From Candidatus Yanofskybacteria bacterium RIFCSPLOWO2_01_FULL_42_49 (GTDB taxonomy: Bacteria > Patescibacteriota > Minisyncoccia > 2-02-FULL-40-12 > GWA2-44-9): a stretch of DNA of 39,370 nucleotides. A program made the translations under genes and the position numbers. This document shows positions 3,924 through 39,370 of this stretch, piece by piece. The notes beneath the pieces were generated by a model. It was not told where the DNA came from, did not search any database, and saw only the letters and a list, made by a program, of their open reading frames with translations. The first letter of the stretch is position 1. Every line of letters starts with the position of its first letter. The stretch is taken from the NCBI GenBank assembly GCA_001795615.1, contig MGKI01000010.1:1-39370 (forward strand), in the 5' to 3' direction.

Positions 3924-4256
3924 TGGAGCCGTTGGTCGGATTTGAACCGACGACCTACTCCTTCATTGCTACCCCTACTTACTTAATGCGCTATAAGGGG
4001 ACTAGACTGTATCTTCCCCCGATTCAAATCGGGAGCCCTTGTCAGTCGTTCGAGCGTATATACTTCGTATATCTGGTTCGCTCGGACAAAATGTAAGCAC
4101 GCTTCCATTTCGTCCTCACTGCCAGATATAATGATACGCCACGGTCTGAACCTGCGCAAGGCCTTTAACCGTTATTCGGGATTCATCCCAACGTTACCAT
4201 CGAGATGGGCAATTTTATTTACCATGGAGTTGCTCTACCAACTGAGCTACAACGGC
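3924..4256 (-). tRNA. tRNA-Thr(GGT), interrupted by an intron in the anticodon loop
   Basis: 5' half GCCGTTGTAGCTCAGTTGGTAGAGCAACTCCATGGT and 3' half AAGGAGTAGGTCGTCGGTTCAAATCCGACCAACGGCTCCA; acceptor GCCGTTG/CAACGGC and anticodon stem ACTCC/GGAGT are perfectly complementary once the insert is removed. Confidence 0.88.
3964..4220 (-). other. Putative group I intron (~257 nt) in tRNA-Thr(GGT)
   Basis: Located after anticodon position 36; exon ends in U, intron ends in G; contains AAGATACAGTCTAGTCCCC (S/P7-like) and GGTTCAGACC (R-like). P1/IGS pairing not confidently resolved. Confidence 0.65.
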
Positions 4257-4529: not shown

Positions 4530-4612
4530 TGGGCAGTGAGGGACTTGCACCCCCGAAGACCAACGGTCGGCACGTTTACAGCGTGCTGGTTTTGCTACTC
4601 ACCCAACTGCCC
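4530..4612 (-). tRNA. tRNA-Tyr(GTA)
   Basis: Acceptor GGGCAGT/ACTGCCC, anticodon loop CTGTAAA, long variable arm; no encoded CCA. Confidence 0.93.
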
Positions 4613-5389
4613 ATTATTAAAAAATTCTAAGAATCTCTTTTCATGTTTTTTATTACCAAATCCTATGTTATTGAAATATTTAATCAAATCTTCCCTTCTG
4701 GTTAAATATACATTGTGTCCACTAATTTTTGAAGGGTGGAACCCTAATTGGACCAATATATTTCTCACTGATGTCAGTAATGGCAATGATCTGTTGCAAA
4801 AAGATATCTGCGTGCCGTATTTTAATTTATAGACAGAACCATCAGTATCAATAAGCCCTCTCACCACTCTTGCCATATATTTTTTGCGAGATACACACCA
4901 CGGTGGTATATCAACTTGTGCTTTGACCTTATTATATACTAACCCCATATTTAGGAACCATCTTACTAAAGTCGTAGAACCAATATATACTACTATCTCG
5001 TTACTTCTACAGGTCGTAATTTTGGGATAAACACCGAATAAATTCTTTATTAGAGCCGAAACGTGGCCAGTATATTTATCTTTTGTCCCAAGAGTTACAA
5101 CGACTTGAGTTGGAGTAATATGTCCGTCTCCAAGTAATGTTCCGACAAATTCTGCCAAATCTTCCGAGTATCTTTTAGGAACTATGATACTGCGATTTAT
5201 ATTCCTGTAGGTTTTCTTTTTAAATGGTATCGGCTTTATACCCAACCGCAATAATCTCTTAAACACAGACGACTCTCCGATGTTAAGAAGTTTAGCAATC
5301 TCATCTATGGTCTTGTTCTCCTTAATATATAACCTTTTTAATTCTACCCTCTTATCGCGTTCCTCTATTTTATTCCACCGCTTAGCCAT
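4595..5389 (-). CDS. LAGLIDADG homing endonuclease family protein with N-terminal HTH
   Basis: Two LAGLIDADG-like motifs (FVGTLLGDGHI and VVRGLIDTDGSVY) and N-terminal HTH (KTIDEIAKLLNIGESSVFKRLLRLGI). Confidence 0.88.
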   Translation of the reverse strand: MAKRWNKIEERDKRVELKRLYIKENKTIDEIAKLLNIGESSVFKRLLRLGIKPIPFKKKTYRNINRSIIVPKRYSEDLAEFVGTLLGDGHITPTQVVVTLGTKDKYTGHVSALIKNLFGVYPKITTCRSNEIVVYIGSTTLVRWFLNMGLVYNKVKAQVDIPPWCVSRKKYMARVVRGLIDTDGSVYKLKYGTQISFCNRSLPLLTSVRNILVQLGFHPSKISGHNVYLTRREDLIKYFNNIGFGNKKHEKRFLEFFNNGQLGE

Positions 5390-37021: not shown

Positions 37022-38950
37022 TTATCGGATCAATTCTTGGACCAACTGATCAGCTTGATAAACATTCCCCAAAAGCTCGAGGATACCGGCGGAATGTACC
37101 GCCACAGCGCGGGCTTGAGGTGAATAATCATAGTCATAGTCGCTTACCAGCCCATGGATATTGCTGTCAAAAACAATTCCGACAATTTCCAGGTCCCGGT
37201 TGAAAACCGGGCTACCGGAGTTACCGCCGGTAATGTCGAGGTTAGAAACGAAGTTAAGCGGCGTTTTAAGATTCACCGAACTCTTTCTCTTTTGCCATTT
37301 ATTCGGAAGCTTCCAATCGCCGGCGTTATCAAAGTCCGCCGAATGCCTGTAAGCGTCGCCAATAGTAGTCCACGGCAGAATTGTCTTTCCGTTTTCACTG
37401 TAACCGGACATCGTTCCGAATGATAATCGCAAAGTAAATGTGGCATCGGGATAAACGCCGGTGCCCAATAGTTTAAACATCGCATCTGATAGTCTAGCAT
37501 ATCCCTCTTGTTCCCTTTTTACCGCTTGAACATACTGGGCTTGTAAGCCATACGATTCTGCCACAACAGCCACAGCGGCAGAGAGCAAAGGGTTGGTGGC
37601 GACATCCGGTTCCATTTCAAAAGAATCGTAAATAAACTGGTGGGCGGCGCGAGCCGGACTCATGTCATCGGAAAGCACCGAGCGGACCAGCTGGCTGTCG
37701 GCGCCAAACACCTCAACTAAATGCCCCAGAGAGTCGACTAATTTTGCTTCTTCATATCTTAAGCTCGTTTCTGAAAGCGAATTCCTGTACTCAATTACAC
37801 TCTGGATATTTTGCTGATTGCTGCCAAGATTCAGTGATTCGAAAACAAGACCAAAAAGATCCGAATCAAACCCCAATCCCCTGGCCGTCATCATAAGTTG
37901 AGAATAAATAGGCCGAATTTCTTTTTGGGCTTCGCTGATCAAATTCATGCCTTCCGTAATTTGATTCGTAAGCACGGGATCGCCGTTGGCTTTGTCGAGT
38001 AAGTCGGCTTCAAATAATTTTTTGTCCCTAAAAAGTTTCGGGTCCTGAAGTCCCTTTATTTTCCCCGCGTATAGCTTGCGTGCATTTTGCCAGCTGAAAA
38101 GGTCCGATTCAACAACTAGTGCTTCCGCTCTGCCACGAAGCATAAACTGCTTTGTTGTCAGCTCTCGCCGCCGGAACACATCCAGCAGAAACGGTGCCCT
38201 GACATCGCGTTCCGTCTCAAGCGCAGAAAGAGTCAGAAGCCGTTCCGTACTTCCCGGATGGCCCGACACAAACATCAGTTCGCCTTCTTTGGCCCCTGTT
38301 TTAGACCATGTAAAATGGTCGGGTGTCTTGACCGGCTTGCCGTCTTCATACGCTCTCAAAAACGAGACATCGAGCGTATAGCGGGGGTATTCGAAATTAT
38401 CAGCATCTCCCCCGAAAAATCCAACCCTTTGTTCAGGCATAAAAACTAATCTAATGTCATTGTAAATTTTGTAGCAATAACTATGGTACTGGCCACCTTG
38501 ATACAAAATCACGACTTCACATGTCATCCCGACCGGACTGATCCGGCTAAACATTGCCGTATTGTTTACTTCTTTAGTTATATCGGTCACGCTCATCAAA
38601 ACCCTGACATTGAGATTAGTCTTAAGTTCTTGTGAGGGCGTCGGAGCGTAGAATCCGTTTTCATAGTAGTTATTCTCCGGCGTACTTAACTCCTTGACCG
38701 CCTCTTCGGAACAATGCCAATTAGTCATCAGCAAACCGTCTTCAGAAACAAACGATGTGGAGCAATTCGGAAGACGGGCTGAACTTTTCTGAACCCGTTC
38801 CACCCATACCGAAGTCGATACAAAGTCGTATTTATTCTTAAGTTGTTCCAGGGGCAGGTTATTCAACAGCCACATCCCCTCGTCAGCATAAGACGAGAAA
38901 CCAAAGACAAGAATCACAGCAAGCAAAACCGAAACAACCATCTTTTTCAC
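37022..38950 (-). CDS. S46-family dipeptidyl-peptidase (DPP7/DPP11-like), exported
   Basis: Signal peptide; EGMWLLNNLPLEQLKNKYDF; LLMTNWHCS; VSNLDITGGNSGSPVFNRDLEIVGIVFD. Confidence 0.95.
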   Translation of the reverse strand: MKKMVVSVLLAVILVFGFSSYADEGMWLLNNLPLEQLKNKYDFVSTSVWVERVQKSSARLPNCSTSFVSEDGLLMTNWHCSEEAVKELSTPENNYYENGFYAPTPSQELKTNLNVRVLMSVTDITKEVNNTAMFSRISPVGMTCEVVILYQGGQYHSYCYKIYNDIRLVFMPEQRVGFFGGDADNFEYPRYTLDVSFLRAYEDGKPVKTPDHFTWSKTGAKEGELMFVSGHPGSTERLLTLSALETERDVRAPFLLDVFRRRELTTKQFMLRGRAEALVVESDLFSWQNARKLYAGKIKGLQDPKLFRDKKLFEADLLDKANGDPVLTNQITEGMNLISEAQKEIRPIYSQLMMTARGLGFDSDLFGLVFESLNLGSNQQNIQSVIEYRNSLSETSLRYEEAKLVDSLGHLVEVFGADSQLVRSVLSDDMSPARAAHQFIYDSFEMEPDVATNPLLSAAVAVVAESYGLQAQYVQAVKREQEGYARLSDAMFKLLGTGVYPDATFTLRLSFGTMSGYSENGKTILPWTTIGDAYRHSADFDNAGDWKLPNKWQKRKSSVNLKTPLNFVSNLDITGGNSGSPVFNRDLEIVGIVFDSNIHGLVSDYDYDYSPQARAVAVHSAGILELLGNVYQADQLVQELIR

Positions 38951-39082
38951 GCTTTATCCTCTTTTTAAAACAACCCTCTGTGTCAAATAAGTACATTTTT
39001 ACCACGACCCTGTCAATGCGACACCCGGATAATCAGCAGGTTGAAAACAATGATTTGTTGTGATAAAATTCCTCTGTCAGTA

Positions 39083-39190
39083 TTAACAATATTCCGCGGT
39101 AGCTCAACCCCGACGATACTGTCGGGGAGCCGACCGAAGCGTCGGCTTGGTAGAAGGCGGCTCGCCGCTCTACAGCTTATTTGCGGAATA
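39083..39190. repeat. Truncated tRNA-Asn 5' copy interrupted by two tandem 20-nt palindromes
   Basis: TTAACAATATTCCGCGGTAGCTCAA + CCCCGACGATACTGTCGGGG + AGCCGACCGAAGCGTCGGCT + TGGTAGA. Confidence 0.85.
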
Positions 39191-39205
39191 ATTTTAACAA
39201 TATAT

Positions 39206-39280
39206 TCCGCGGTAGCTCAATGGTAGAGCGGCTCCCTGTTAAGGAGATGGTTCCAGGTTCGAGTCCTGGCCGCGGAGCCA
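39206..39280 (+). tRNA. tRNA-Asn(GTT)
   Basis: Acceptor TCCGCGG/CCGCGGA, anticodon loop CTGTTAA, T-loop TTCGAGT, encoded CCA. Confidence 0.96.
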
Positions 39281-39370
39281 GTCAGAAAATTGCAAGTTTT
39301 TAGATGTCGCCTCGCTTCGCTTGGCGACCAAATCATAAGGAATCTTGGACGAAAAATTGAATTGGCGATT

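Follow-up and report, generated by a model that had tools for sequence, protein, structure and literature searches.

A palindrome-split tRNA-Asn fragment in a Patescibacteria genome as a probable remnant of a tRNA-breaking and tRNA-replacing homing element

The window analysed here (39,370 nucleotides) is the whole of contig 10, strand +, of the 807-kb genome of Candidatus Yanofskybacteria bacterium RIFCSPLOWO2_01_FULL_42_49. Close to its right-hand end, directly upstream of an intact tRNA-Asn gene, lies a broken copy of the 5′ part of the same gene with two palindromes in its D-loop. This feature probably represents the 5′ end of the native tRNA-Asn gene after displacement by a homing element, of which it is an ORF-less remnant; elements of this kind would break tRNA genes in the D-arm and replace them. 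The same arrangement recurs at other tRNA genes, is patchily distributed among relatives and is linked to genes for small GIY-YIG nucleases, with a match between palindrome type and nuclease subfamily. The gap between relic and tRNA in the window contains no ORF and this copy is therefore classed as an ORF-less remnant, not as a member of the GIY-YIG homing elements. Every piece named in the initial annotation (a tRNA-Asn 5′ duplicate with 40 nt of palindromes in its D-loop, upstream of an intact tRNA-Asn) was located in the sequence, and the region is laid out as follows.

39041–39069, strand +: sigma-70-like promoter, TTGAAA-17-TAAAAT, upstream of the relic, in the place expected for the native tRNA-Asn promoter (consensus scan, 10/12 matches, TG before the second hexamer).
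39083–39107, strand +: relic, TTAACAATATTCCGCGGTAGCTCAA, leader plus first 15 nt of the presumed displaced tRNA-Asn gene (alignment to the intact copy, no mismatch; tRNA position 1 is T39093).
39108–39127, no strand: palindrome H1, CCCCGACGATACTGTCGGGG (CCCCGAC-loop-GTCGGGG), first half of the D-loop double-hairpin element (sequence; dispersed family).
39128–39147, no strand: palindrome H2, AGCCGACCGAAGCGTCGGCT (AGCCGAC-loop-GTCGGCT), second half of the double-hairpin element (sequence; same family as H1).
39148–39163, strand +: relic resumes as TGGTAGA-AGGCGGCTC, D-loop and part of the D-stem of the presumed displaced tRNA-Asn (sequence; the TTGGTAGA(G) tail is also found 3′ of palindromes elsewhere).
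39164–39190, strand −: inverted copy of the tRNA-Asn 5′ region, GCCGCTCTAC..AGCT..GCGGAATA, closing the large stem; possible fold-back scar (local alignment).
39191–39205, strand +: leader of the intact tRNA, ATTTTAACAATATAT, repeating the relic leader; gap without an ORF (sequence, alignment, ORF list).
39206–39280, strand +: intact tRNA-Asn(GTT) (ARAGORN, Rfam, genome tally, family search).

The two 20-nt palindromes abut and split the relic D-loop, of which TGGTAGA picks up again after them (39148–39154), and a GTAGAAGGCGGCTCGCCGCTCTAC hairpin occupies 39150–39173. The large stem is formed by GCGGAATA (39183–39190) pairing with TATTCCGC (39090–39097). Relic and intact tRNA-Asn match exactly over 19 nt and are identical in 25/27 aligned columns, with a 2-nt indel. 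The 121-nt relic folds at −52.5 kcal/mol (z = −6.0), with 0/200 shuffles equally stable. Within it, the tRNA-Asn 5′ region is repeated imperfectly and in inverted orientation at 39164–39190, and an equally good local alignment was obtained in 0.4% of 2000 shuffles.

The downstream gene is recognised as tRNA-Asn(GTT) by ARAGORN and by Rfam (tRNA, 68.5 bits) and keeps an intact cloverleaf 3′ of the relic, as is the case at most other sites described below. It is the only tRNA-Asn found in the genome stretches examined (those around tRNAs and GIY-YIG matches) and shows 100% identity, over 74 nt, to the tRNA-Asn of two other genera in which this gene has no intron. The promoter-like pair sits 5′ of the broken copy and none is seen between this copy and the tRNA, suggesting that the relic occupies the native position. 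The proposal that the upstream copy is a tRNA mimic was abandoned: ARAGORN and Rfam recognise the downstream gene only, the 3′ half of the copy is missing and its D-loop holds 40 nt of hairpins. A group I intron was likewise rejected, Rfam searches of the contig end, at gathering thresholds and, for 38950–39370, at E up to 1, returning tRNA only and no catalytic core (RF00028). The remaining gap (39155–39205, 51 nt) contains no ORF and no integrase, and is too short for a GIY-YIG ORF.

A palindrome-junction pattern containing no tRNA letters, scanned in 45 genomes of the order, gave 25 exact copies, eight in tRNA D-loops and 17 outside tRNA genes, although 18 of the 25 come from one genus and these counts are thus not independent. 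Four of the five junction copies in the source genome are in tRNA D-loops. The pattern GGTAGAGTCCCGAT had a single match across the order. In a second scan, which covered 85,488 species genomes, the pattern was the double hairpin plus GGTAGA, which itself favours tRNA sites; it identified 23 sites on 21 contigs. Patescibacteria lineages are named in the titles of 20 of these contigs, and one (L252) is titled only ‘bacterium’. At nearly all of these sites, a tRNA 5′ fragment with palindromes in its D-loop is followed by TTGGTAGA and then by an intact tRNA, usually of the same kind; the TTGGTAGA(G) tail is required by the GGTAGA pattern but not by the junction pattern applied to the 45 genomes. 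Accompanying 3′ relics, judged by acceptor pairing, are clear for L249 (7/7 pairs) and L121 (6/7) only. Generic D-loop-gap patterns, run on the family and the phylum, returned few palindrome cases and several palindrome-free tRNA 5′ relics 5′ of intact tRNAs. The possibility, raised at the outset, that other tRNAs lack similar structures is contradicted by the many found, and comparison with relatives revealed palindrome-split relics in independent genomes, arguing against an assembly artefact.

At three loci (L235, L121 and L010) an ORF of 83–87 aa with a GIY-YIG domain (PF01541, 40–58 bits) lies exactly between the relic and the intact tRNA, and the start of the same ORF is present in the gap in L250, where it is interrupted by a stop, and in L242, where it ends with the sequence record. 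Across the 45 genomes scanned for the junction, 85 GIY-YIG genes were located irrespective of tRNAs and their flanks then compared. A same-strand tRNA starts between −30 and +60 nt from the stop codon in 23 of the 85, and in 19 of these 23 a relic of that downstream tRNA is also present upstream of the start codon. Opposite-strand tRNAs, a usable control, lie near 2/85 genes; the count of tRNAs upstream is not a valid control, since elements leaving 3′ relics also seem to exist. Several of the GIY-YIG ORFs stop on a TAG at tRNA positions 8–10.

The type of palindrome goes with the GIY-YIG subfamily. Of 78 GIY-YIG proteins placed in a tree, the three associated with CCCCGA palindromes form a 100/99 clade, despite their different tRNAs, and the same three are the top three of the 78 matches for both the L235 and L250 proteins, which come from the 85,488-genome scan and are also associated with a CCCCGA palindrome. 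A profile of this subfamily run on 392 genomes of the class yielded 56 matches. Among 30 loci inspected, an intact tRNA adjoins 27 (24/27 when the three search seeds are left out) and a CCCCGA hairpin lies just upstream in 17. L358 is a tRNA-Asn locus in which the GIY-YIG ORF is present and the leader is repeated in the same manner as in the window; it is the full-length, ORF-bearing counterpart of the window copy. A tblastn search with GIY-YIG proteins against phages and plasmids gave no match.

Occupied and empty sites coexist at the Arg(TCG)-Lys(CTT) locus, where a relic is present in G022 and G002 and a simple short spacer in G021, G024, G011, G018 and G004. The inner tRNA-Lys of the congener G002 is identical to that of G011, a member of a different genus. 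The outer 5′ and 3′ tRNA-Lys pieces pair perfectly over the acceptor stem, as the halves of a complete tRNA would, so that an older, complete tRNA-Lys appears to have been divided and superseded. Loci for Thr, Glu, Pro, Ile and Val show similar nesting of tRNAs. Within the family, tRNA-Asn is also variable in its intron state: the gene is uninterrupted in the source genome and seven others and consists of two halves a few hundred nt apart in many others, while in a congener (G001) the first 35 nt of tRNA-Asn are followed by an intron-like start at the contig end.

These arrangements point to a full-length element with the layout tRNA 5′ fragment, D-arm double hairpin, rest of the D-arm (~7–10 nt), GIY-YIG ORF (~85 aa) and intact tRNA. 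We infer that the nuclease breaks the tRNA gene in the D-arm (or, for some relatives, in the anticodon loop) and that repair from an element-bearing copy, using homology within the tRNA itself, would insert the palindromes, the ORF and new tRNA sequence, which may be a 5′ end or the entire tRNA. A functional tRNA would thereby remain available to the cell, its transcription starting at the old promoter and passing through the relic. The palindromes may protect the relic from being cut again or keep it from disturbing folding of the tRNA. The window copy would descend from an ORF-bearing element and have lost the ORF or never received it, and the inverted piece at 39164–39190 looks like a fold-back repair scar, and is treated here as a presumed by-product. 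Counting against this homing model, the intact tRNA still has the presumed target, leaving its escape from re-cutting unexplained. The initial description of the locus as a record of palindromic-element insertion is sound as far as it goes, but the palindromes track a GIY-YIG element by which tRNA genes are apparently broken and rebuilt.

H1 and H2 abut and belong to a family dispersed both inside and outside tRNAs, as befits a double-hairpin element, and the dispersed copies and empty sites would be compatible with mobility of such an element. As 17/25 junction copies are outside tRNA genes, the palindromes could also belong to an independent element that inserts into relics. Relic and intact tRNA differ at no more than 3/15 nt in 14/21 sites and can be identical (the window, L235, L241, L244 and L251), while about one third of sites have a relic that is very unlike the tRNA downstream of it, which could reflect decay or a different origin. 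The identical pairs, two relic units in tandem in L244 and the palindromes outside tRNAs could all be accommodated by tandem duplication of the tRNA or of its 5′ end, followed by chance landing of a free double-hairpin element in the dead copy, with no nuclease involved. However, a dead copy should be hit anywhere, whereas the palindrome is in the D-arm at site after site, and the relic is nearly always upstream. Exactly this gap also holds GIY-YIG ORFs at many loci and isotypes, with the match between palindrome type and subfamily, and we regard duplication without a nuclease as unlikely.

The initial annotation also raised the possibility that the upstream copy regulates the real tRNA. One point left for this is that the inverted copy is able to pair with the tRNA 5′ half, and a selected cis-acting RNA controlling tRNA-Asn maturation could be envisaged in which the relic fold and an antisense fold compete; the joint minimum free energy structure (−87.9 kcal/mol, z = −4.7) disrupts the cloverleaf, compared with −81.4 kcal/mol for relic and tRNA folded separately. 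During transcription, however, the relic would fold first, and the inverted piece was seen in the window copy only, where the structure has neither comparative support nor an Rfam match. No positive evidence for regulation emerged, and the arrangement is patchy, being absent at the same (Arg-Lys) locus in sister species and present at many unrelated isotypes, making a regulatory role very improbable.

The relic is least of all likely to be the attachment-site remnant of an ordinary integrase-type island, which was rejected. In its favour, integration at tRNA genes is classic, and in the window a repeat family has its end at the 3′ side of the tRNA, but integrases normally leave 3′ tRNA fragments, whereas the fragment here is 5′, and the insert is 40–400 nt long and without an integrase (in the 51-nt window gap, or between relic and tRNA at the other sites inspected), the ORF at related loci being a GIY-YIG nuclease.

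The tRNA-breaking homing element favoured here resembles several known systems in part. SegB of phage T4 is a free-standing GIY-YIG homing endonuclease encoded between tRNA genes and promotes inheritance of the T4 tRNA region (PMC2988022). Both cases involve a small GIY-YIG gene linked to tRNA genes and an expected spread by cutting and copying. However, SegB lies between intact tRNAs, whereas the ORF described here is preceded by a broken 5′ piece of the target tRNA and runs into the rebuilt copy, palindromes are present in the relic, and the window copy has no ORF. In the mitochondrial atp6 gene of Allomyces, a GIY-YIG element carries a replacement gene end and has left a displaced remnant of the original, similarly combining a nuclease gene with a partial copy of its target, although that target is a protein gene in a mitochondrion while many tRNA isotypes are targeted here; we know of no double hairpins inside the displaced atp6 end. 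Double-hairpin elements, i.e. two abutting short hairpins that are dispersed and thought to be mobile, occur in the mitochondrial genomes of Allomyces and other organisms, but those described here have a fixed place in tRNA relics and track a nuclease subfamily.

Within the same bacterial group, GIY-YIG ORFs have been identified in non-intron insertions of CPR rRNA genes, where most insertions are at the tops or bases of stem-loops, in a study that places GIY-YIG outside spread by homing and mentions neither tRNA nor palindromes (PMC11270868). GIY-YIG ORFs are common to both settings, although the target there is rRNA and no rebuilt gene copy is described. Group I introns of tRNA anticodon loops occur in the source family, for example in tRNA-Phe (RF00028) and, judging by split matches, in tRNA-Asn; they differ from the present feature, which has no group I core, is broken in the D-loop and has its tRNA restored by a second copy and not by splicing. 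No description of GIY-YIG elements in tRNA genes of Patescibacteria was found in the open-access papers searched, and the palindrome-bearing GIY-YIG tRNA elements are apparently an undescribed variant of homing endonuclease elements.

Transfer RNA genes are essential and nearly invariant, which makes them suitable targets for selfish elements but also means that breaking them is dangerous. If the proposed mechanism is correct, breaking and replacing a tRNA gene in one stroke would require neither intron nor integrase, would account for the displacement of native tRNA genes by foreign ones in genomes where most tRNAs are single-copy, and would assign a function to some of the small GIY-YIG genes common in Patescibacteria. 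The homing reading directly predicts cutting in the tRNA D-arm. A broader proposition, for and against which we see the case as evenly balanced, is that palindrome-marked GIY-YIG elements are a main engine of tRNA gene turnover in Patescibacteria, native genes being repeatedly broken and succeeded by rebuilt or foreign replacements, with nested ‘tRNA-in-tRNA’ fossils, including that in the window, as the result.

Elsewhere in the window, a tRNA-Thr(GGT) gene (3924–4256, strand −) has an anticodon-loop intron (ARAGORN -i), and its halves are conserved in G001 and G002. An ORF for a LAGLIDADG homing endonuclease (4595–5389, strand −; PF14528, 48 bits) lies between tRNA-Thr and tRNA-Tyr. Like the GIY-YIG ORFs, it overlaps the start of the downstream tRNA, here the 5′ end of tRNA-Tyr, with its own 3′ end; no 5′ relic was seen upstream. 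The end of the contig (39275–39370) is one end of a repeat family found as inverted pairs ~1.5–1.6 kb apart, with other copies in G000 (C9:23143 and 24738; C5:8958 and 10512; C1:28456 and 30054; C3:872), several of them directly at tRNA 3′ ends, and is probably an insertion element that broke the assembly.

Related structures were noted in other genomes. Palindrome-free tRNA 5′ relics directly before intact tRNAs are present in other Patescibacteria (L253, L254, L255, L257, L260, L261 and L265). Whole tRNA genes lie in the loop of one hairpin in L106 (1400–1800, strand −), L109 (6227–6466, strand +) and L095 (8300–8760, strand −), this hairpin belonging to a TCCCGAT..ATCGAGGA/TCCTCGAT..ATCGGGA double-hairpin element inside an older tRNA. 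An otherwise complete tRNA with a CAT anticodon (L072, 2540–2640, strand −, in G001) has a 29-nt palindrome in its D-loop. Similar structured stretches of ~150 nt, with the layout GCCGGAGCGATG..hairpin..GTGAGGCGGG..GGTCGGAAGACC.GAGAG.TGT, adjoin tRNA 3′ relics in L097 (2980–3510, strand −), L106 (7400–7900, strand −), L207, L218 and L236; that in L106 had no Rfam match at E up to 1, and the stretch is possibly an unknown mobile RNA element. GIY-YIG elements in L309 and L331 apparently leave 3′ relics after the ORF, while in L300, L301 and L279 GIY-YIG ORFs are found away from tRNAs, within inverted repeats (e.g. CCCCCACACTT-ATG..TAA-GTGTGGGGG).
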